Source of the DNA: a virus
Strand: one strand, 5' to 3'
Virus record (IMG/VR): IMGVR_UViG_3300036770_001055
Location: 1 to 45,852 of that record
DNA: 45,852 nt
Shown one piece after another: positions 8,230 through 29,090 of the stretch; within the stretch, counting starts at the first letter, position 1, and each line of letters begins with the position of its first letter. A program made the translations under genes and the position numbers. The notes below the pieces were generated by a model. It was not told the origin of the DNA. It was given only the letters and a program-made list of their open reading frames with translations, and searched no databases.

Positions 8230-11200
8230 ATGGCTGACAATTCCTCTCTCCCTGGTGTTTACGTTACTCCGCCCCAAGGTGTGGAGGAATACAGTGACCC
8301 GCTAAAGCGGACGGTGCGTGACACGCTACTCTCTCCTGTAGCCACGACTGGTATGGGGGGCCTTGCGCCCTCCACTGCTGACACGGCTGTTACCGGCCAA
8401 GCACCGACTCCGTTCACGACGGGAGCGACACTTGAGCGCCCGGCTGCTGGGCTTGCTCCGCCGCCGCAGGCACCGTTCTCTGCGTATAGCGCGACTCCTC
8501 TCCCTACGTTTGCGGCGCCGACGCCTCGTGAGGCTCCTGCGGAGACTGGTCCGCAGGTCGCTTATAACGCTGCGACTAAGCAGTTTTACGTAGGCGGTAA
8601 CCTCATCAACGCCGCTAATGCTCTTGAGGTTGAGGAAGGGTCGAAGCTTCTCGGGCAGCCCGGTCGCCCTCTGCCCAAAACGGCCAGTGGCTGGCAGCCG
8701 ATTGATCCGTCGTCGTATATGACGTACCTCGAAGCCCTCAAAAAGCCGCGTGCGCTTAGTGAGACTGCCGTCCTTGGGGCGAAGTCGTTAGCCGCTGGGT
8801 TCGTCGGTGGCGCTGGAAGAACAGCGCAAATGCTCGGGGCTACCGAAGCTGGCCCTGCTATTGCTAAATACGCTGAAGAAAATATCGGGCCGTCGAAGGA
8901 AGAGCAGGCTCGGACTGCGCTTATTAACCAGAGCAATTCGTTCCTACAGAATGTACTCGATGCTGCGGCACAGGGTTCGTCGTCGGTTGCCGCTTCCCTC
9001 ATCGGCGGCGTCGGTGGGTTCTTGGTAGGTGGTCCTCTTGGCGCTGCTGTAGGTGCTGGTCTTACGTCGTTTCTGCCTAACGTCTCTGCTTTGTGGGACT
9101 CTGCCCAGAAGAATGGTTACCCCATAAATGATAGCAATATACAACTCCAGATCGTTGGTGGTGCGCTTGGCCTCTCCGCTCTGGATGCGATCCCCGTTGC
9201 CCGTGGTGCTAAGGTCTTCTCGCCTGCACTGAAGGAAGCAGCCGAGGCTGCTGGGCAGACGGTTGTCCGCCGTATGTTGACCGGTGCACGTCGTAGCTCG
9301 CTTGAGGAAGCGGCGACTGAGGCCACCCAGGAACTTCTTCAGAATACATGGTTCGATCCGAAGGCTAGGGCTTTGCTGTCGCAAGGCGATCTTGCGGCCC
9401 TTGCTCCTTACGTCGCGCAGACGTATGGTCGCGAGGCTCTTATCGCTGGCGGTGCGGGTGCGATCCTTGGTGGTGTCTTCGGTGGTGGTGCCGCTGCTCT
9501 TGGCGGTCGTGCTGGTGTCGATACCAACGAACCTAAGAACCTGCTCGCTGATGCTGGTGCTAAGGAAGAAGCTCCTACGGCTGGGCTGCCCGCCCCAGCG
9601 CCCGTTCTAGCGTTGCCAGCCCCGGTCTACGGGCCTCCTACCCCTGAACCTTCTGCTATCCCTATGGGGGCGCCGCCTCCTGCCGAGGCTGCTGGTCCGG
9701 CTATTGAAATGCCGTATGTGCCTACTGCTGAGGAGGAAGCCGCAACCCGCGCTGCGGAGAAGCAGCAGGAAGAAGCAACCAAACGTGCACAGACTGTCGA
9801 ACGTGAAGCTGCTGTTACCGCCGCTGCCGCTGTTGCAACAGCCGAACGCGAAGCACGGGAAGCCGATCCTACTTTGCCGGATGTGGTTACGCCGCAGGTT
9901 AAAGTACCGCGTCCGCAGAAATACCGGCAGTTTATCCTAAACAATTACTACAATGTGCTGACCGAGGAAGGCCGCGCAGCCGTTCTGTCGCGTTTAGGTC
10001 TCACGCCAGAGGAGTTTTCTAAGACGGTCAAGGGGGAAACTTACAACATCCCCGCGCTGGAGAAACTGTTAAAACAAGCATATACCGCTGTTGGTTATAG
10101 GTATGATACGCGCGAGACAGGTATCTTCACTTCCACTCCAGAGGCCACCCTTGGTACGCCACCTCCTCCGGTTCCTTCCGTTCAGACTCCAGTTGCGCCT
10201 GTCGCTCCTGCCTCTCAAACTGGTCAGCCGATTCCGGCTGAACCTGTCGCTCCTGCTGCTGAAGCTGGACCTGCTGCGGTTTCGCCTGCGGCTGCGGTTC
10301 CTGTTGTGGAAACTCCGGCTGCGGCACCGGCTGCGGCACCGGCTGCGGCACCGGCTGCGGCCCCTGGTCTTACGCCTGACGAGCGTGCTCGACGGGCTGA
10401 TGCTATTACGGGACCGGAAGGCGCCTTCGGAAAACTGAAGAACAAAGCCGAGCGAGATGCGTTCCTAGAGGCTGTTGGCCTTGGTGGTATGGATCTGGCT
10501 ACCTTTATAGACACACTACGGGTTAAGCCCGGTACTCTTGAAGGCGTTGAGTCGAAGCTAGCTGACGCAATCGCTGCCGCTGCGGCAGTGCCGAAGGCCG
10601 CTCCCCTGAAAAAGGGAAAGAAAGGTGCTGAGAAACCCGCAACGACGGAAACAACCGCGCAGCCTACCGCACCTGAAACGAAAGCCACTGCGGAGACGAA
10701 AACTCCTCCAGCTAAGAAGAAAGCAATCCGCGTCATTAAGATGACGCCTAAGATCCAAGAAGCGCGCGCCCCTAAAGCGCCAGCACCTGCCACACAGCCT
10801 ACCGAGACCATTATCGAAACGCAGACTGCTGGTATCGTTAACAAGCCGGGGCTCACTTCGGCTGGCACGCTCGTGCGTGCAGTTGGGCAGATGGAGAACA
10901 AGTTCGTAGACTTCACCCGTGCTCTTGTGGATATGACGGGGCTTCGCGCCCGTGACGTAGCTATCCTTTACCGTAGCAAGATCGGCCTTGTGCGCGATAC
11001 CATCCTCCCAGAAACTGCGGACGATGCGTACGTAGTTACAACTAATGTAAACGGGCGGCCAACGCACTTCGTCGTTCTCAACGACTCCAAGAAGTTTAGT
11101 CTGCGTAAGACCCTTGAGCTTATCGCTCATGAAATTGGTCACATCGTAGAGAAGGACGGCTTCGCCACGGCTTCTGCCCGTGTCCGCAACGCCATTACGT

Positions 11201-14200
11201 CTGACTGGAACAAGCATGTAGCACGGTATGGTAACAAGACCGTGCGCGAGTTCGTAAGATCCACGTTCCCTACTGAGAGAGCGATTGGCTGGATCAGCGA
11301 CTCCGACCCAGCGGTGCTTAATCAGACGCTCAACGAACTGAGTACAACCGACCCCGACTTGTATAGCTACCTTGCTGGTGCGGAAGGGTTCAGCGAATGG
11401 TTCGCTAACCAAACGGCGCGTTGGGCGACGACTTCCAAGAAGCCGCTTACTATCGTAGAGAAGTTTTTCGCAGAGCTTGGCCGTATGCTCCGCAAGGTGT
11501 ACGACGGGCTTGTGTCGCAGTCTGCTGACGATGGTCTCCCCGTGGAGTCCATGCGTAAGTTCTTGGATAGCCTCTCGCCGCCGCTTCTTGAGCCGACGAC
11601 ACCGCCTCCACTCCCGAAGGGTGCTACTCAGGTACAGGCCGCGCGAGCCGCAGCGCAAGCTGCAACAACCGAACCAGCGCCAAACACGCCGGACAAGATC
11701 ATTGGGTTCGCTGACCAGTACCTGCCCAGGCAGGTCGCGGGGGCGTCTGCGGATATTGCCATTAACCTCTTGGAGGCTGGCAAGCGTGGCGTCTATGGCA
11801 TGTCGTTCGGCACGGATCTCATCAAGCAGGTAAAGTCTATCCTGCCATCTGCGGAGAGCTTCTTCGACGTATTGACTCGTGGCGCGTCCGTTACCCGTGA
11901 GATGGGCGAAGCCCGTAACGCGATCTTTAACGACATCGCGGCGTTACCGAAAGCGCAGCGCCTTGAGATTTTCTCCGTGGGGCTCAAGCAGACGACCCGT
12001 GGCAAGTGGGGGTACGAACCTGCTTGGCTGAAGGGCAAGCTCGACCGCAAGGGCGCCCCGCTGAAGATCGAAGTCGATCCTACCGCCAAGGCTGAGTGGG
12101 ACAAGTTCAAGGCGGCCAACCCCAAGGGGGCGGCGATCCTCGACCGCATGTTTGAGCATATGTATATGCTCGATCAGAACCTGCGCACGACTGTGCGTAA
12201 CATCGTGGAAGCAGATCTTGGCACCGAGGAGTTCAACGCCCTCTCCCCAGAGGACAAGGCCAAGCGCCGTGCTGAAGTGCAGAACCGCCTGAAGGTGCTC
12301 GATGTTTACGGGCGGATCAACGGGCCGTATTTGCCTCTCACCCGCTTCGGTTCGTTCATCGTGGTGGCACGCAGCAAGGCGCTTCAGGCTCTTGAAGCGA
12401 TCCCGGTTGCCGACCGGTCGAAAGAGGAAGCCGACCAGATTGCAGAGATGCGGCGTGATCCCAAGCACCTCACCGTGGAGTTCTACGATAGCAAGGCGGC
12501 AGCGACTCGTGCGCGGCGGGACATCGCTAAAACATATCCAGAGATGGATGTGGCTGACTTCAACAAGATCAGCGACATAAAGGACTTCAAGGACGATGTT
12601 TCTCGCACGCTGCTGACACTGCGGGCTACAATCAAGGACGGTATCGGTGATTCCGCCGAGGCCAAGAAGGCTGAAGCAATCCTCGATGATGCCCTGATGA
12701 CGCTCTACGTACGTGGTCTCGCTGAGTCGAGCGCACGGCGGCGCAAGCTGCCTCGCGAAGGCGTGAGCGGTGTCAAGCCGGAGGAGATGCACAAGGGCTT
12801 CGACATTTCGTCGCAGTCCATGTCGATGTTTATCGACAACCTCACGAAGTCCACGGCGCTCGCCCCGATCATGGAGCAGTTGCGTAGTGAAGCGGCTGTC
12901 GATGGTGCTACTCTCGACGCGCTGAACGCAGAGCGTCCTGACAACATGAAGGTTACGGCCCCACGCGAAGAGCGCACGCGGGCAATGCGCGAGCTTATGC
13001 TTCGTTACGTCGAAGGCGTCGGCCAACAGCCTACGTCGTCCATCGCGGATAGCCTGTCGAGCTTTGTGTCCTATTACTTGCTGCTGACACTGCCGCGTTA
13101 CCACATTATGAACGCGACTCAGACGGCCATGATGACCCAGCCCAGGCTGGCGGCTCAGTTTGGTTTTGCAAAGTCGTGGGGTGCGATTGGTAACGCCTAC
13201 CAAGGGTTGATCCAGAGCATCAAGTCCGATGACAGTGGGTTCTTCTCGGGCAAGTTCGACATCACCAAGCTCAAGGCTTACGATGAGAACACGAAAAAGT
13301 ACGTGCCTCTCTCCGGTGGTGCTCTCCGTGCTATGGAAGCGTTGCGTGACCGCAGCCTTCTTGACGTTGGTCTTGGTCTTGAGCTTGCACACTTCCGTGC
13401 GTACGGCTTAGGCGAGACCGCGACCGGGTTCAACAAGGTCATGCGCGGGCTTACGAACATCTCCCGCCGCGTGGAGTACACGAACCGCGTGGTTGCGGGC
13501 TTGTCAGCGTACAACCTTAAGTTAGAGCAGCTTAAGCGTGATAACCCAGGCATTACTGCGGAGTCTGCCGAGCGGCAGGCGATTGAATACGCTGTAGATA
13601 TTGTCCGCACGACCCAAGGTGATCCAACTTCGGAGAACGCACCGCGTTACTTCAACAAGCTTGGTGGTGCAGGTAAGGTGATCTTGCAGTTCCGCAAGTT
13701 CCAGCTTCTCCAGGCGTCCGAGATTATCCGCCACGCTCACACGATGTTTAAGGGTGCGAGCCCTGAAGAGCGGCAGATCGCCCGCGCTGCCCTTGGGTTC
13801 TTGTTGCTGAACACGTCGGTTATGGCTGGCGCTGTGGGTATTCCGGGTGTGGCACTTGCGTCTTACATCTTGGCCGCAGCGTTCGGTGACGACGAAGAAC
13901 TTAAGTACTCCGTGGGGTCTTACACCACTCGTGGTGAACGGGCGCTTCGCTCCGTCTTGGGCGACAATGCTATCGCTAACATCCTGATCAAGGGTGTCCC
14001 GGCAGGGTTCGGTATCGACATTGGCGCACAGCTTGGTATGGGCACCACGTTCTCGATCTTGCCTTACACCGACTTGGATCTTACGTCCAAGGAAGGGTAC
14101 AACAAGGCCGTCGTCGGTCTGCTCGGGCCTATCGGGGCTATCGGATCTAGCTTCGCTGACGGTGCTGGCATGATGGCTCGTGGCGATTACTGGAAGGGAA

Positions 14201-14643
14201 CGGAGATGATGCTCCCGACCGGCTTCCGGGCGGCCATGCGGGCGTACCGCGAGACGTTTGCCGATGGTATCACCACGAGGGGCGGCGACCAGCTTGTGTC
14301 GCCGGAGGAGTTCAACCTCCTCAAGACCATCGTCAACGGCCTTGGCATCACCACGACCGATATGCAGAAGATCCGCGACACCCGTCGCGACATCTACGAC
14401 TACGATGTTTACTTCAAGAACCGCACGTCTACACTGCGGCGGCAGTTTGTCGAGGCCCGCAAGGACCGCGACTACGAAGCGCAAGAGGCAATCAAGGCTG
14501 AGTGGCGCGAGTTACAGGCTGCGAAGCAGCGGGTTGGGTTCAAGTCCACATCGCTCTCTAGTCTCCTGCTGGCGCCAACCGAGCAGGTCAAACGCGAGAA
14601 GCGTGGGCAAGAGCAGTTCCGCAGGGTGCAAGAAGCGCAGTAA
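8230..14643 (+). CDS. Giant ejection protein with HEIGH metallopeptidase motif (large polyvalent protein)
   Basis: A 2137-residue protein, the largest in the window. Regions in order: a Pro-rich N-terminus; Gly-rich hydrophobic segments around residues 185-200, 245-285 and 400-425; long Pro/Ala/Glu linkers (about 430-870) including a short PAAAPAAAPAAA repeat; a zincin-like segment with H967-E-I-G-H971 (LIAHEIGHIVEKDGF) and a downstream GFSEWFANQ with Glu at about 1056, consistent with a gluzincin-type third ligand; then long helical regions ending in LMLRYVEGVGQ, SFVSYYLLLTLPRYHIMN and a basic C-terminus. The C-terminal part resembles the large polyvalent protein-associated domains (LPD38-like) of giant phage proteins. 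Likely ejected with the DNA; a peptidase acting in the host envelope or on host proteins is inferred. The stop (14641-14643) directly abuts the convergent endolysin gene. Confidence 0.6.
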   Translation: MADNSSLPGVYVTPPQGVEEYSDPLKRTVRDTLLSPVATTGMGGLAPSTADTAVTGQAPTPFTTGATLERPAAGLAPPPQAPFSAYSATPLPTFAAPTPREAPAETGPQVAYNAATKQFYVGGNLINAANALEVEEGSKLLGQPGRPLPKTASGWQPIDPSSYMTYLEALKKPRALSETAVLGAKSLAAGFVGGAGRTAQMLGATEAGPAIAKYAEENIGPSKEEQARTALINQSNSFLQNVLDAAAQGSSSVAASLIGGVGGFLVGGPLGAAVGAGLTSFLPNVSALWDSAQKNGYPINDSNIQLQIVGGALGLSALDAIPVARGAKVFSPALKEAAEAAGQTVVRRMLTGARRSSLEEAATEATQELLQNTWFDPKARALLSQGDLAALAPYVAQTYGREALIAGGAGAILGGVFGGGAAALGGRAGVDTNEPKNLLADAGAKEEAPTAGLPAPAPVLALPAPVYGPPTPEPSAIPMGAPPPAEAAGPAIEMPYVPTAEEEAATRAAEKQQEEATKRAQTVEREAAVTAAAAVATAEREAREADPTLPDVVTPQVKVPRPQKYRQFILNNYYNVLTEEGRAAVLSRLGLTPEEFSKTVKGETYNIPALEKLLKQAYTAVGYRYDTRETGIFTSTPEATLGTPPPPVPSVQTPVAPVAPASQTGQPIPAEPVAPAAEAGPAAVSPAAAVPVVETPAAAPAAAPAAAPAAAPGLTPDERARRADAITGPEGAFGKLKNKAERDAFLEAVGLGGMDLATFIDTLRVKPGTLEGVESKLADAIAAAAAVPKAAPLKKGKKGAEKPATTETTAQPTAPETKATAETKTPPAKKKAIRVIKMTPKIQEARAPKAPAPATQPTETIIETQTAGIVNKPGLTSAGTLVRAVGQMENKFVDFTRALVDMTGLRARDVAILYRSKIGLVRDTILPETADDAYVVTTNVNGRPTHFVVLNDSKKFSLRKTLELIAHEIGHIVEKDGFATASARVRNAITSDWNKHVARYGNKTVREFVRSTFPTERAIGWISDSDPAVLNQTLNELSTTDPDLYSYLAGAEGFSEWFANQTARWATTSKKPLTIVEKFFAELGRMLRKVYDGLVSQSADDGLPVESMRKFLDSLSPPLLEPTTPPPLPKGATQVQAARAAAQAATTEPAPNTPDKIIGFADQYLPRQVAGASADIAINLLEAGKRGVYGMSFGTDLIKQVKSILPSAESFFDVLTRGASVTREMGEARNAIFNDIAALPKAQRLEIFSVGLKQTTRGKWGYEPAWLKGKLDRKGAPLKIEVDPTAKAEWDKFKAANPKGAAILDRMFEHMYMLDQNLRTTVRNIVEADLGTEEFNALSPEDKAKRRAEVQNRLKVLDVYGRINGPYLPLTRFGSFIVVARSKALQALEAIPVADRSKEEADQIAEMRRDPKHLTVEFYDSKAAATRARRDIAKTYPEMDVADFNKISDIKDFKDDVSRTLLTLRATIKDGIGDSAEAKKAEAILDDALMTLYVRGLAESSARRRKLPREGVSGVKPEEMHKGFDISSQSMSMFIDNLTKSTALAPIMEQLRSEAAVDGATLDALNAERPDNMKVTAPREERTRAMRELMLRYVEGVGQQPTSSIADSLSSFVSYYLLLTLPRYHIMNATQTAMMTQPRLAAQFGFAKSWGAIGNAYQGLIQSIKSDDSGFFSGKFDITKLKAYDENTKKYVPLSGGALRAMEALRDRSLLDVGLGLELAHFRAYGLGETATGFNKVMRGLTNISRRVEYTNRVVAGLSAYNLKLEQLKRDNPGITAESAERQAIEYAVDIVRTTQGDPTSENAPRYFNKLGGAGKVILQFRKFQLLQASEIIRHAHTMFKGASPEERQIARAALGFLLLNTSVMAGAVGIPGVALASYILAAAFGDDEELKYSVGSYTTRGERALRSVLGDNAIANILIKGVPAGFGIDIGAQLGMGTTFSILPYTDLDLTSKEGYNKAVVGLLGPIGAIGSSFADGAGMMARGDYWKGTEMMLPTGFRAAMRAYRETFADGITTRGGDQLVSPEEFNLLKTIVNGLGITTTDMQKIRDTRRDIYDYDVYFKNRTSTLRRQFVEARKDRDYEAQEAIKAEWRELQAAKQRVGFKSTSLSSLLLAPTEQVKREKRGQEQFRRVQEAQ

Positions 14644-20145: not shown

Positions 20146-20541
20146 TTACTCGACCTTAGTGGACGGGCGGCGCACGTTAACACCGATCTTAGTGCCGTAG
20201 TTAACACCCGGAGGGATCTCGCCGGTCTCGGTCATCCGAGCCCGTACGGCGCTCTTGCTAACCCGTCGTTCAAGCATGTCATAGGCGTCGTTGCTCTTGA
20301 CGTAGGAGATGATCGCATCCCAGTCCGCCACGTTCGCGAAGTCCGTTGTCGTGACGAACGCCGTGCCGCTCGCCGTCTTGAAGGAAGTCACCCCTTGGGT
20401 ATCAGCTTGCTCGCGAAGCCACGCTTCGAGCTTGTTCATCTTCTCATCCACAGCAGCGGCTTCTTCCTTGGCCTTCTGCATAATGGCTTCCTTCTTATCC
20501 CGCAGCTTGAGATAGCCACGGATCACGTCATCGACTGTCAT
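20146..20541 (-). CDS. Conserved phage protein with N-terminal coiled coil
   Basis: A 131-residue protein. Residues 8-48 (YLKLRDKKEAIMQKAKEEAA and following) form a coiled coil. The C-terminal part, with FKTASGTAFVTTT, ADWDAIISYV, LERRVSKSAVRA and PPGVNY, matches a pattern I recall from small conserved phage proteins encoded next to replication helicases; the biochemical function is unknown to me. It lies two bases after the helicase gene and has a GGAGG site upstream. A role in replication or host takeover is inferred from position. Confidence 0.6.
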   Translation of the reverse strand: MTVDDVIRGYLKLRDKKEAIMQKAKEEAAAVDEKMNKLEAWLREQADTQGVTSFKTASGTAFVTTTDFANVADWDAIISYVKSNDAYDMLERRVSKSAVRARMTETGEIPPGVNYGTKIGVNVRRPSTKVE

Positions 20542-20543
20542 AG

Positions 20544-22874
20544 TTAGCCTCCGTCTTGGTCCTTGAGGACTTCAAGTAGCAGGCCTTGAAGCGACTGCTT
20601 CGCGGCCAGCCGTTTGTAAACCTTACGCTCTACATCAGTCGCCTCGATATGAACAACCGTGGACGTACCACGCTTGCCAGGACGCTCGACGCGACCGTTC
20701 GCCTGAACATACTGTTCGTTACTCGTAATCGGACCGTACCAAACAATCGCTGTCGCAGCCGTCAGCGTCAGCCCGTGAGCCATCGTTGCGGGATGTGCGA
20801 TCAAGACCCGTGGATTCGTGGAGTTTTGGAAATCATGGAAGATCTGGTTCCGCGCCGATGACGACACGGCGCCGTTCACCACGGCTACCTTCCAGTGCTT
20901 CGACAACTCTCGCTCAAGCATGTGTAGCGTACCAGTCAGAGGCACGAAGACGATGACCTTGCCTTCGGTCTGCTCGATAACCTCCCGCACCGCTGCCACA
21001 CGCGGCGCACAGTCCACTTCGATATGCTCACCGTCATCCCCGTAGGCCACGCCACAGTTGTGAACGATAGTAAGTTCTCCGCCCACCCCGCGGATAACAA
21101 ACCGGTTGCGTGGTCCGCAATCTATCAGGTCATAGACCTCTTGCGCCGGTTCTGCGCCTGTTGCTTTGGCGTCTCCCACCTGCAATTCTCCGGTGCATAC
21201 GGCCCGTTGTTGTCTATCCGACCCAGCGAAAGTGCATCCGAATAGCCTGCCTGCATATCCCTCCAGAATACCTCGAAGCTGGTTAACCATTGCGGGCACA
21301 CTGTAATCCCGCGCCCACCCCAATTGGGGTAGTCCTTGAACCCCGTGTCTAAACACCTGCGCTTCATATGCGTCCAGATACGGTACGGGCGTGAGTTCGT
21401 CATCGCGTGTTTCTGATTGCCGTGTACGCAACCACAACTCCGAGGGTTCGTGCGGTGACGCGTTCGTAAGTATTGGCTGGTACGTACTACAACCGAGCCA
21501 CAAACGCAGACGCATTCCCAGAGTGCGCATTTGCTCTTTGAAGTCCCTGCGCGTCGGGTAGCTGTCAGGAAGCCGAACTTCCTGCCGTGCAAATCTACTG
21601 CATGGTTTGGCATCCAATATATCTCCGGCCTGTACCCACCCGCTGGTGGTGAGTACTTTATGATCGCGTGTCAGATATACCCCTGCCAGCGCAACAGTGG
21701 GCTTAACACCCCTATAAATTGCCCCGCCTTGAGAAACCCATTCGCACCCGTCCCAGACTATATCGTTGGCTCTTACATGCTCGATTGGTACCCACCCACG
21801 GGCGCATAATACAGCCGTACCTTTAGCAATGCAAGCGATCTGTATAAGTTTCTGCAACTTGATGGCTTGGTTAAGCGCCGTGATCGTCTCACCAGACGCC
21901 ATCTCTACCAGCAAGTCCTTCTTCATAGCCTCGAAGTGTTTCTTCTGGTCTGGCGTGAGGTCCACATGACGCGACTGGATCAGCGTCGGGGGCAAGTCCA
22001 AGCAGTCATCACGGGCGAATCTAATCGAGGGTTGCAGTACATGGCGGACGATCTCCACAGAGTTGGGGCGGGGAATCCACTTGTGCATACCTTCCTTAAA
22101 CATAACCTGATCACGGAAGTGCGTGTAAAACGGCGGGATGTACGGGCTATCGACAAGCCTTGCCAGTGCCCAGGCATCCGTGGGTTCATTCGGTGTTGGC
22201 GTCCCCGTCATCAGCCATAGGCGCGTGTCGGGGTTCTTATCCATCCAGGCGCGAAACGTGCGGAACCGCCGCGTCGAAGCACCACGAAGCACAGCCGCCT
22301 CGTCAACGATAACAAGATCAAACTTGCCATGCGCTTCGGGGGCGATCACGTTGAACCCGTCATGGTTCACGATGTAGAAATCTACATCTGCCTTGAGCCG
22401 TTTCGATCTGCGCTTAGCGTCACCGTGAAGGACCACATACCGCCGCTCGATGAAGTCCGTGAAGATAGCGTCACCCCACACCCGCTCCAAGGTAGAGAGC
22501 GGGGATACGATCAGCACCTTCTTCACAAGCCCTTGTTTCATAAGGTAATCTGCTGCCCACAAGGAACTCATGGTCTTCCCAGTGCCAAGGTCGTTAAGTA
22601 CTAGGCACTTCTTGTGGACAGTAAGGAACGCCGCCGTCTCCTTCTGGTGATCGAACGGTTTGAACCGACCGGGCCAGCTATAGTGATGGAGGATAGGCGA
22701 CGGCGCCTCGATCCCAAGGGACCGCAGTGTGGAGACGTTCTCCACTTCATGCGGCACGACAACGAACCTGTTGCCCTTAACGACAAGTTCTTTCGCCGAA
22801 GGGATAGCCGCGAAGACGCGACTGGGGTTGGCAAGTCGCAGGGCGATTGCCTTGGATCGTTCAGAGATGATCAT
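20544..22874 (-). CDS. SF2 (SNF2-like) helicase interrupted by an intein
   Basis: A 776-residue precursor. Extein residues 1-347 and 607-776 would ligate into a 517-residue SNF2/ERCC-type helicase: Walker A NDLGTGKT (94-101), DEAA box VIVDEAA (188-194), motif [13 protein letters not shown] (221-230), and motif [15 protein letters not shown] (724-736). These enzymes translocate on double-stranded DNA; phage versions act in replication or recombination. The intein lies at residues 348-606, inside the conserved KLIQIA/CGVAY segment leading into the second RecA-like domain. The helicase cannot be active unless splicing occurs. The gene is in tight series with the 50-residue membrane protein upstream. 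Confidence 0.85.
21057..21833 (-). mobile_element. Intein in the helicase (259 aa)
   Basis: Begins with Cys348 ([20 protein letters not shown], block A) and has a block B-like [12 protein letters not shown] with the TxxH His. It ends with block F ([18 protein letters not shown]) and block G (ELTIVHN) followed by Cys607 as the +1 nucleophile. All splicing residues are therefore present: Cys1, block B Thr/His, penultimate His605, Asn606, Cys+1. Between blocks B and F the in-frame sequence (about residues 420-580) looks like no endonuclease domain; instead an HNH gene occupies that DNA in another frame (21125-21613). The insertion interrupts a conserved helicase segment. Confidence 0.85.
21125..21613 (-). 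CDS. HNH endonuclease nested out of frame within the intein
   Basis: A 162-residue frame, shifted by one base relative to the intein on the same strand. The product has a cysteine-rich N-terminal half ([17 protein letters not shown]) and an HNH-type core: [62 protein letters not shown]. This matches the phage GGRGI/NCRW HNH homing endonuclease pattern. ATG 21613 is preceded by GGAG nine bases upstream, so it could be translated independently. It starts just after intein block B and its TGA falls inside block F (VYDLID), so it fills exactly the slot of an intein endonuclease domain. Its likely role is to spread the intein by cutting intein-less helicase alleles. Confidence 0.8.
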
Positions 22875-22876
22875 TG

Positions 22877-23029
22877 TCAGTCCAGGGCTGCGATAGTTAG
22901 GACAAAGGTTACAACACCAGTAACCGCCATGAATACTTGCCAGCTAAGCCCAACGAGTGGGGCTGCTACTAGCATAGCGGCTAAACCGCACGCTATCGCT
23001 ACTGCAAGAGACGCACATACTAGAAACAT
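22877..23029 (-). CDS. Small two-helix membrane protein (50 aa)
   Basis: ATG 23029 has GGAG seven bases upstream and overlaps the end of the VRR-NUC gene. The 50-residue product is almost entirely hydrophobic, with two predicted transmembrane helices (residues about 2-24 and 28-48: MFLVCASLAVAIACGLAAML; VFMAVTGVVTFVLTIAAL). The longer in-frame reading upstream would be mostly shadow of the nuclease gene, so the short form is preferred. The stop is three bases from the helicase start. The function is unknown; such tiny early membrane proteins could act on the host envelope or in exclusion. Confidence 0.6.
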   Translation of the reverse strand: MFLVCASLAVAIACGLAAMLVAAPLVGLSWQVFMAVTGVVTFVLTIAALD

Positions 23030-27956: not shown

Positions 27957-29090
27957 TCACTTCATGGTTGTCACTTCGCCAAACGGAGCCTGATCAAGCG
28001 CCGTTGATACCCATAACACAGGATAATCAGGAGGTGATCCGAAATCACCGGAACACAAGTCAGTCAGCACCACACACGCAACTGGATTTAGTTGCTGCGC
28101 GTCAACGTAGCGAAAGATCGGGCTGAACGCCGTGCCGCCACCGCCATGACGGGCGAAGTGGGGCGTATCCTCCGGGGCAAACGAGTCGCAGTGCAGCACT
28201 TCTGCGTCGAAGTAAACGACATGCACCGCCGTAGGCCGCAGGTCAGTGTGGATCGCCGTGATCTCACCAGCAAACTGCGCCACCTCTTGGTTGCTAACCG
28301 AGCCAGAACAGTCAACCGCGATAACGAGCGGACCAAGCGCCTCACCAGTACGCGACGGCATGTAAAGCGACTGGGGTAAGAACCGTCTGTTAGGCCGCGA
28401 CCATGTGCGGCTGTCGTCCCGACACTTCACAACGAAGCGTTGCAGGACATCACGCCAGTTGACCTTGGGTTGCAGTATCTCGGACACGAGTTGCTGCATT
28501 CGCACCGACAACTTACCAGCCATACGAGCAGCTTGCGCCGCTTGTGCAACCTTGACGCGCATCTCAGAAGCGGCTTGCTCGACTTCCGCAGGGCTACCAC
28601 TTGCGTCTATAATATCGCGACCAATGCCAGGAACGCCAGAGCCATCAGCCCCACGCCCCTTGCCAGACTTCTTACCAGACGGGTTCTCGGGGAGGATGTT
28701 GTAGATCCCCTCGGACGTACCGCCACCCTTGTCGTAGATTGCCTTATCAAGACACCCACCCTTGATGAATATGCCGATACCTTCATCGCTAAGTAGTTGA
28801 TTTATAACGAAATCTGCGGCTATATTCCAGCGTTCTGCATCGCGCTGTCCTCTGCGGTAGTTGTGCTCCAACATGGGGTGCAGACACTCATGCGCTACCA
28901 GAAACATAACCTCGGCATCGCTCAGCCCGCCGACAAACTCCGGGTTGTAGTAGATCACCTTGCCATCAGTTCCCGCTGTGGGAACTGCGTTGGTTATTAC
29001 TGTCTTCAAATTGAGCGCAACCGTGCCGATGAACGGATGTGCCAGCACAAGGGCTGTCTTCGCCTTGCTTAGTTTGTGTTCGATGTTCAT
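27957..29090 (-). CDS. VWA / putative metallopeptidase protein (DUF2201-like)
   Basis: A 377-residue protein with two parts. The N-terminal domain has VAHECLHPMLEH (HExxH at 67-71) and RWNIAADFVIN (about 88-98), typical of the putative metallopeptidase domain of DUF2201 proteins. After a Gly/Lys-rich linker comes a von Willebrand A-like domain with MIDAS-type DCSGS (260-264) and a later VVLTDLCSG. Such proteins are usually encoded next to a MoxR-type AAA+ ATPase, and one is present at 31338-32339. They probably work together as a chaperone-like machine on an unknown client. A recurrent AGGAGATAACTA leader precedes the start. Confidence 0.8.
   Translation of the reverse strand: MNIEHKLSKAKTALVLAHPFIGTVALNLKTVITNAVPTAGTDGKVIYYNPEFVGGLSDAEVMFLVAHECLHPMLEHNYRRGQRDAERWNIAADFVINQLLSDEGIGIFIKGGCLDKAIYDKGGGTSEGIYNILPENPSGKKSGKGRGADGSGVPGIGRDIIDASGSPAEVEQAASEMRVKVAQAAQAARMAGKLSVRMQQLVSEILQPKVNWRDVLQRFVVKCRDDSRTWSRPNRRFLPQSLYMPSRTGEALGPLVIAVDCSGSVSNQEVAQFAGEITAIHTDLRPTAVHVVYFDAEVLHCDSFAPEDTPHFARHGGGGTAFSPIFRYVDAQQLNPVACVVLTDLCSGDFGSPPDYPVLWVSTALDQAPFGEVTTMK

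Follow-up and report, generated by a model that had tools for sequence, protein, structure and literature searches.

How can an intein carry an endonuclease that its own reading frame does not encode? This question is raised by a helicase gene in an IMG/VR virus record of 45,852 bases (the window). The genes of the window are of the tailed-phage type and include a terminase, a head-tail adaptor, an internal virion protein, a DNA polymerase and a primase/helicase. The helicase matches the Pfam profiles SNF2-rel_dom (3.5e-16) and Helicase_C (8.5e-14) and the PHROG 62 DNA helicase (3.7e-96). Its residues 348-606 form the intein and the other 517 amino acids an SNF2-type helicase (Table 1). Elsewhere, positions 27957-29090 encode a large HNH-family protein (PHROG 1314, 2e-99), not related to the HNH gene nested in the intein, and an ORF of 2137 aa at 8230-14643 resembles DarB-like antirestriction proteins in its C-terminal part (PHROG 10089, 3.7e-39).

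Table 1. Features of the helicase locus (positions in the window).
Feature	Position	Strand	Details
SNF2-type helicase gene	20544..22874	-	776 aa with intein; 517 aa after predicted splicing
C-terminal splicing domain, blocks F and G (...IVHN then C)	21057..21146	-	HMM E 6.2e-20
Intein, 259 aa	21057..21833	-	between KLIQIA and CGVAY; empty site in relatives, family alignment, Hint core, Foldseek
HNH endonuclease gene, 162 aa	21125..21613	-	+1 frame relative to the intein; PHROG 374, AF2, codon positions, shuffle test
HNH frame upstream of ATG, open from block B, 19 codons	21614..21670	-	
N-terminal splicing domain, blocks A and B (Cys1, TRDH)	21618..21833	-	HMM E 2.8e-37
GGAG, Shine-Dalgarno-like	21623..21626	-	9 nt before the HNH ATG

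The preliminary description of this DNA had placed at 21057-21833 an intein with complete splicing blocks and without an in-frame endonuclease, and had proposed an alignment with intein-less homologues as a check. All 80 of the retrieved IMG/VR relatives of the helicase turned out to be intein-less with the junction filled (mostly KL.QI[AS]/CG.VY, the slash marking the insertion point), and the insertion between KLIQIA and CGVAY is thus certain. Since Cys+1 is already there in nearly all of these empty sites, the intein needed no change of its target. The coordinates of the insert hold, and it has the expected ends, Cys1 and His-Asn followed by Cys+1, with TRDH as the TxxH motif of block B. 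C1, T55, H58, H258 and N259 do not vary in the alignment of 41 family inteins. In the AlphaFold (AF2) model residues 1-90, which are mostly ordered, and 230-259 make up an ordered Hint core with pLDDT mostly 95-98 (~95-97 in residues 230-259), and the middle of the intein, between the two parts of the core, is predicted to be disordered. The top Foldseek matches are all inteins, with a probability of ~1 and a best E-value of only 0.002. By its site, its residues and its modelled Hint fold the element is an intein, protein splicing itself being predicted. Canonical large inteins carry an in-frame endonuclease of the LAGLIDADG or HNH type; here, as had been described, the HNH lies in the +1 frame, and the in-frame middle is the disordered segment.

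The HNH ORF begins 220 nt into the intein and stops within block F, so that it occupies the interval from block B to block F. The earlier placement at 21613-21125 on the minus strand, one base out of frame, is correct in all its coordinates. The product matches PHROG 374 'HNH endonuclease' over residues 1-159 (5e-53), and its AF2 model (pLDDT 86) has a beta-beta-alpha element near residues 129-154. The search for PDB relatives returned one weak sequence alignment, to I-HmuI (E 0.15), and no significant fold match in Foldseek; the nuclease assignment therefore rests on the PHROGs and the motif. A search of NCBIfam gave no matches. The GGAG that had been pointed out nine bases before the ATG is in that position, but its strength is ordinary, as 18% of random start codons at the locus equal its energy of -6.6. 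Across the family the Shine-Dalgarno signals are only modestly above those of random starts (median empirical p 0.10; 0.18 in the window), which makes this analysis of the HNH starts suggestive, not decisive. An ATG, GTG or TTG start is present in all 87 nested HNHs examined.

Both same-strand frames are open over the overlap, as previously observed, and this is beyond chance. Synonymous shuffling of the HNH codons of the window put 5.0 stops on average into the intein frame, which stayed open in 0.2% of trials, and the reverse shuffle likewise gave 0.2%; the third frame contains 9 stops. Over 82 distinct loci the intein frame is open in 82/82 against 0.34 expected from the synonymous shuffle, a count biased upward by the preference of searches for unbroken inteins, and the third frame has a mean of 11.8 stops. 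The homologous HNH genes found outside such inteins serve as a control; of these 138, just 2 are covered by another frame that is open on the same strand. A chance overlap of the two frames is ruled out by the shuffle and by this control. A sequencing frameshift is ruled out as well, since the nesting was met again in independent sequences from contigs, isolates and bacterial genomes. This and an HNH frame broken beside a conserved intein frame were the two observations named in advance as speaking against the arrangement, and neither was seen.

The codon-position comparison in both frames, also proposed earlier, was run on the same-site relatives. Their differences from the window are distributed over the HNH codon positions of the overlap as ~0.3/0.3/0.6, which indicates selection on the HNH protein. 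The N-terminal splicing block, upstream of the overlap, has the same signature in the intein frame. The HNHs of these relatives are 53-64% identical to that of the window and the intein-frame by-products 24-37%. Judged by these substitution patterns, the synonymous shuffles and the control outside inteins, the HNH is the selected protein in the overlap, and the intein frame is kept stop-free. Codon positions and identities, together with the ordered Hint core, the disordered middle and the folded HNH of the models, indicate that the shared DNA encodes a real protein when read in the HNH frame, whereas its intein-frame product is a linker that is tolerated.

Is this arrangement specific to the helicase of the window? 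The preliminary description had treated intein and HNH as one unit. The unit stands, but it is not specific to this gene; it belongs to a large, old family found above all in phage DNA polymerases and also in helicases and terminases. A blind IMG/VR query with the splicing blocks only gave 75 distinct inteins in the best 80 loci; 66 of them have an out-of-frame HNH (57 at +1 and 9 at +2), 9 are mini-inteins and none has an in-frame HNH. Two more loci of this query look like split inteins around an HNH gene. Among the first 90 unique intein matches the HNH is nested at +1 in 82 and at +2 in 6, never in frame, and two are spurious partial matches. Locus L330, whose frame is interrupted by an N of the assembly, was left out. 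DNA polymerases are the most frequent hosts of nested inteins, followed by helicases and two terminase genes, and some polymerase genes have two nested inteins. Full-length homologues with +1 nesting occur in Hamiltonella phage APSE, Caulobacter phage GB2A, Shewanella phage SFCi1 and the IMG/VR contig L081, and +2 nesting is seen in the DNA polymerases of Dhillonvirus and Jerseyvirus. The named phages with the nested design also include Salmonella EnJE6 and Sodalis SO-1. For gp39 of the latter (L096, 2575-3336) the record says type I self-splicing intron, whereas by its sequence the region is indicated to be an intein with the HNH nested at +2. The DNA polymerases of ten contigs from bacterial genomes, which are probably prophages, have the same nesting. 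At the helicase site of the window at least 10 other contigs carry related inteins, and a mini-intein of the same family (L259) sits there too. The two-frame design recurs in dozens of other phages, and inteins seem to use it widely, though this has gained little recognition, as a means of carrying their mobility enzyme.

The two components share their history. Intein and HNH divergence are correlated over 77 loci (Mantel r 0.66, p 0.001). The tree of the Hint part only has few columns, with most forks lacking resolution; in the HNH tree the HNHs of helicase inteins cluster (15 rows, support 99). The helicase of the window is 66% identical to one intein-less helicase, whereas those of the same-site intein carriers are only 27-51% identical to it, with HNHs at 52-62%. 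This contrast, the sporadic distribution and the correlation fit horizontal spread of the intein-HNH pair. It had been proposed that an HNH gene invaded a mini-intein and that the pair now moves as one unit. The correlation, the mini-inteins and the control outside inteins support the unit, but not a single capture: three HNHs (L248, L252, L253) are placed among non-intein HNHs in the tree, which suggests that capture was repeated. In L318 (956-3685) a DNA polymerase is apparently split inside the family intein, with stops in the intein frame and, between the halves, an intact HNH with its own ATG; the HNH stop shares the bases ATGA with a new ATG, from which the C-terminal half of the intein is read. 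L291 (695-1690) is likely a second split intein with an HNH gene, its C-terminal half lying in a different frame and having a separate ATG (position 1582). These two loci suggest that nested inteins can become split inteins.

We suggest that the insert in the helicase gene is a composite mobile element, in which a self-splicing intein has its endonuclease as a gene apart, an HNH gene overprinted at +1 between the two halves of the splicing domain, and we regard the following mechanism as likely for the family (probability of about 0.8). With translation in the helicase frame the ribosome would produce a precursor with the ordered Hint core on both sides of a disordered spacer, the latter being a by-product of the HNH gene. 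The Hint core would then splice out the whole insert, yielding the normal 517-aa helicase. Independent internal initiation would give the separate HNH protein, and the use of two frames (+1 and +2) together with the start codon in all 87 members fits such internal starts. In active members the HNH would cut the intein-less allele, and repair would copy the intein and the HNH gene jointly.

In the window itself the last step is in question. Residue 130 of its HNH is Gly, and Asp or Glu occupies this position in 159 of the 164 alignable family members; in the weak alignment (E 0.15) it corresponds to D74 of I-HmuI, which we take to be a metal ligand. The HNH also lacks the C-terminal DNA-binding domain of ~50 aa, present in 10/10 same-site relatives, which makes it the sole loss among the eleven same-site HNHs compared, and its end branch is long (0.43). 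These features would fit a decaying element, in which the intein still splices, the HNH is no longer a working nuclease, and the frame is open only since the decay is recent. However, Gly130 is common to L184 and L185, which group with the window (support 88) and are both intact at ~60% identity, R131, Y138 and N142 of the active-site-like set D/E130, R131, Y138, N142 are retained, and shorter HNHs without the C-terminal domain exist elsewhere (L189, L191, L199, L212). We consider recent decay a serious possibility, though the less probable one. The HNH of the window may be weakened or inactive, its activity is doubtful on these residue comparisons, and given the missing domain and Gly130 active homing by this copy is not to be assumed.

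The composite reading also assumes that the HNH is a separate protein. Programmed +1 frameshifting from the helicase frame would instead give an N-extein/N-intein/HNH fusion with no internal initiation, and a shift could occur in the stretch of 19 codons between block B and the ATG, where the HNH frame is already open. We find this improbable, as the interval holds the HNH at +1 in one group and at +2 in another, a usable start codon is present in 87/87, and the HNH of the split locus L318 begins at an ATG of its own like any ordinary gene.

Out-of-frame HNHs inside phage methylase insertions, those of the ShiLan domain and of Pacc40 gp60, raise another alternative, as the ShiLan insertion is proposed to be tolerated unspliced (PMC11855218) and these methylase inserts have no splicing domains (PMC11855218; PMC12613952). 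The Pacc40 HNH is homologous to that of the window (41% identity), and the ShiLan and Pacc40 loci resemble the window in the HNH in another frame, the insert open in the host frame and the sporadic distribution. They differ in lacking intein splicing domains, whereas the HNH of the window is surrounded by a complete intein; with its conserved splicing blocks and intein fold, a tolerated unspliced insert is very improbable here. In a Rhodocyclaceae contig (L404, 1789-5247) an HNH homologue lies under a long open frame at offset 1; intein blocks are absent, and it is possibly a ShiLan-like insertion. A group I intron carrying the HNH gene, an idea favoured by the intron label on the analogous Sodalis phage SO-1 region, can practically be dismissed, as no intron family is found among the Rfam matches up to E 1 in 20500-22900 and the host frame runs through the region without a stop, as an intein.

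How does the composite element relate to known inteins? Like canonical large inteins, it has splicing blocks and a putative homing nuclease between blocks B and F; in canonical inteins the polypeptide that is spliced out includes the nuclease, whereas here the nuclease is a separate protein. 'Fractured genes' (Dassa et al. 2009, a study cited in PMC10448857) reportedly contain split inteins whose halves are separated by a nuclease gene. They share with our family the separate nuclease gene between intein halves, a state seen in L318 and probably L291, but the intein of the window is one continuous reading frame. The polymerase inteins of APSE, GB2A, SFCi1, Jerseyvirus and Dhillonvirus are homologous and have the nested out-of-frame HNH; they differ in host gene and sites, and in Jerseyvirus and Dhillonvirus in the +2 frame of the HNH. 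The public records of these polymerases do not state the combined intein/HNH architecture. The dCTP deaminase intein of cyanophage CL131 has an in-frame HNH (PMC6293099). Our literature search found no intein with an out-of-frame HNH, and a 2025 preprint may overlap (bioRxiv 10.1101/2025.01.02.630785). This work, by Gosselin et al., is cited in PMC11855218 for overlapping frames in actinobacteriophages; the 'non-canonical architecture' of actinobacteriophage inteins is possibly the same arrangement as in the window. With this reservation, the closest precedent for a complete intein around an out-of-frame HNH is the out-of-frame HNH insertion that lacks splicing domains (ShiLan).

Inteins are usually classed by whether they have an endonuclease domain in their own frame. 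By this rule nested elements pass for endonuclease-less inteins, yet they carry an endonuclease. We see about even odds for a wider generalization, namely that phage inteins with an endonuclease overprinted out of frame are widespread and arose by assembly more than once. Such an architecture would involve several endonuclease and several intein families, would have been taken in error for introns or for inteins that lack an endonuclease, and would be a step from the mini-intein to the split intein with a nuclease gene in its gap. Since a single family comprises mini-inteins as well as nested and split forms, these offer a testable route to split inteins and 'fractured genes', in which a nuclease gene is captured out of frame and stops later arise in the spacer. 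The elements are also natural examples of long same-strand overlapping genes, with one frame selected for its protein and the other mainly avoiding stops.

Nesting was also observed in two unrelated inteins. In the DNA-polymerase intein of L189 (935-1708) an ORF at 1110-1694 for an HNH_3 endonuclease (PF13392, 4.9e-11) is nested at +1, and the same polymerase gene has a second nested intein. In L100 (952-1833) a helicase intein at the Walker B site (VWDE/C) contains a DUF559 ORF at 1202-1822 (1.6e-5), again nested at +1, whose product is Vsr-like by our reading.
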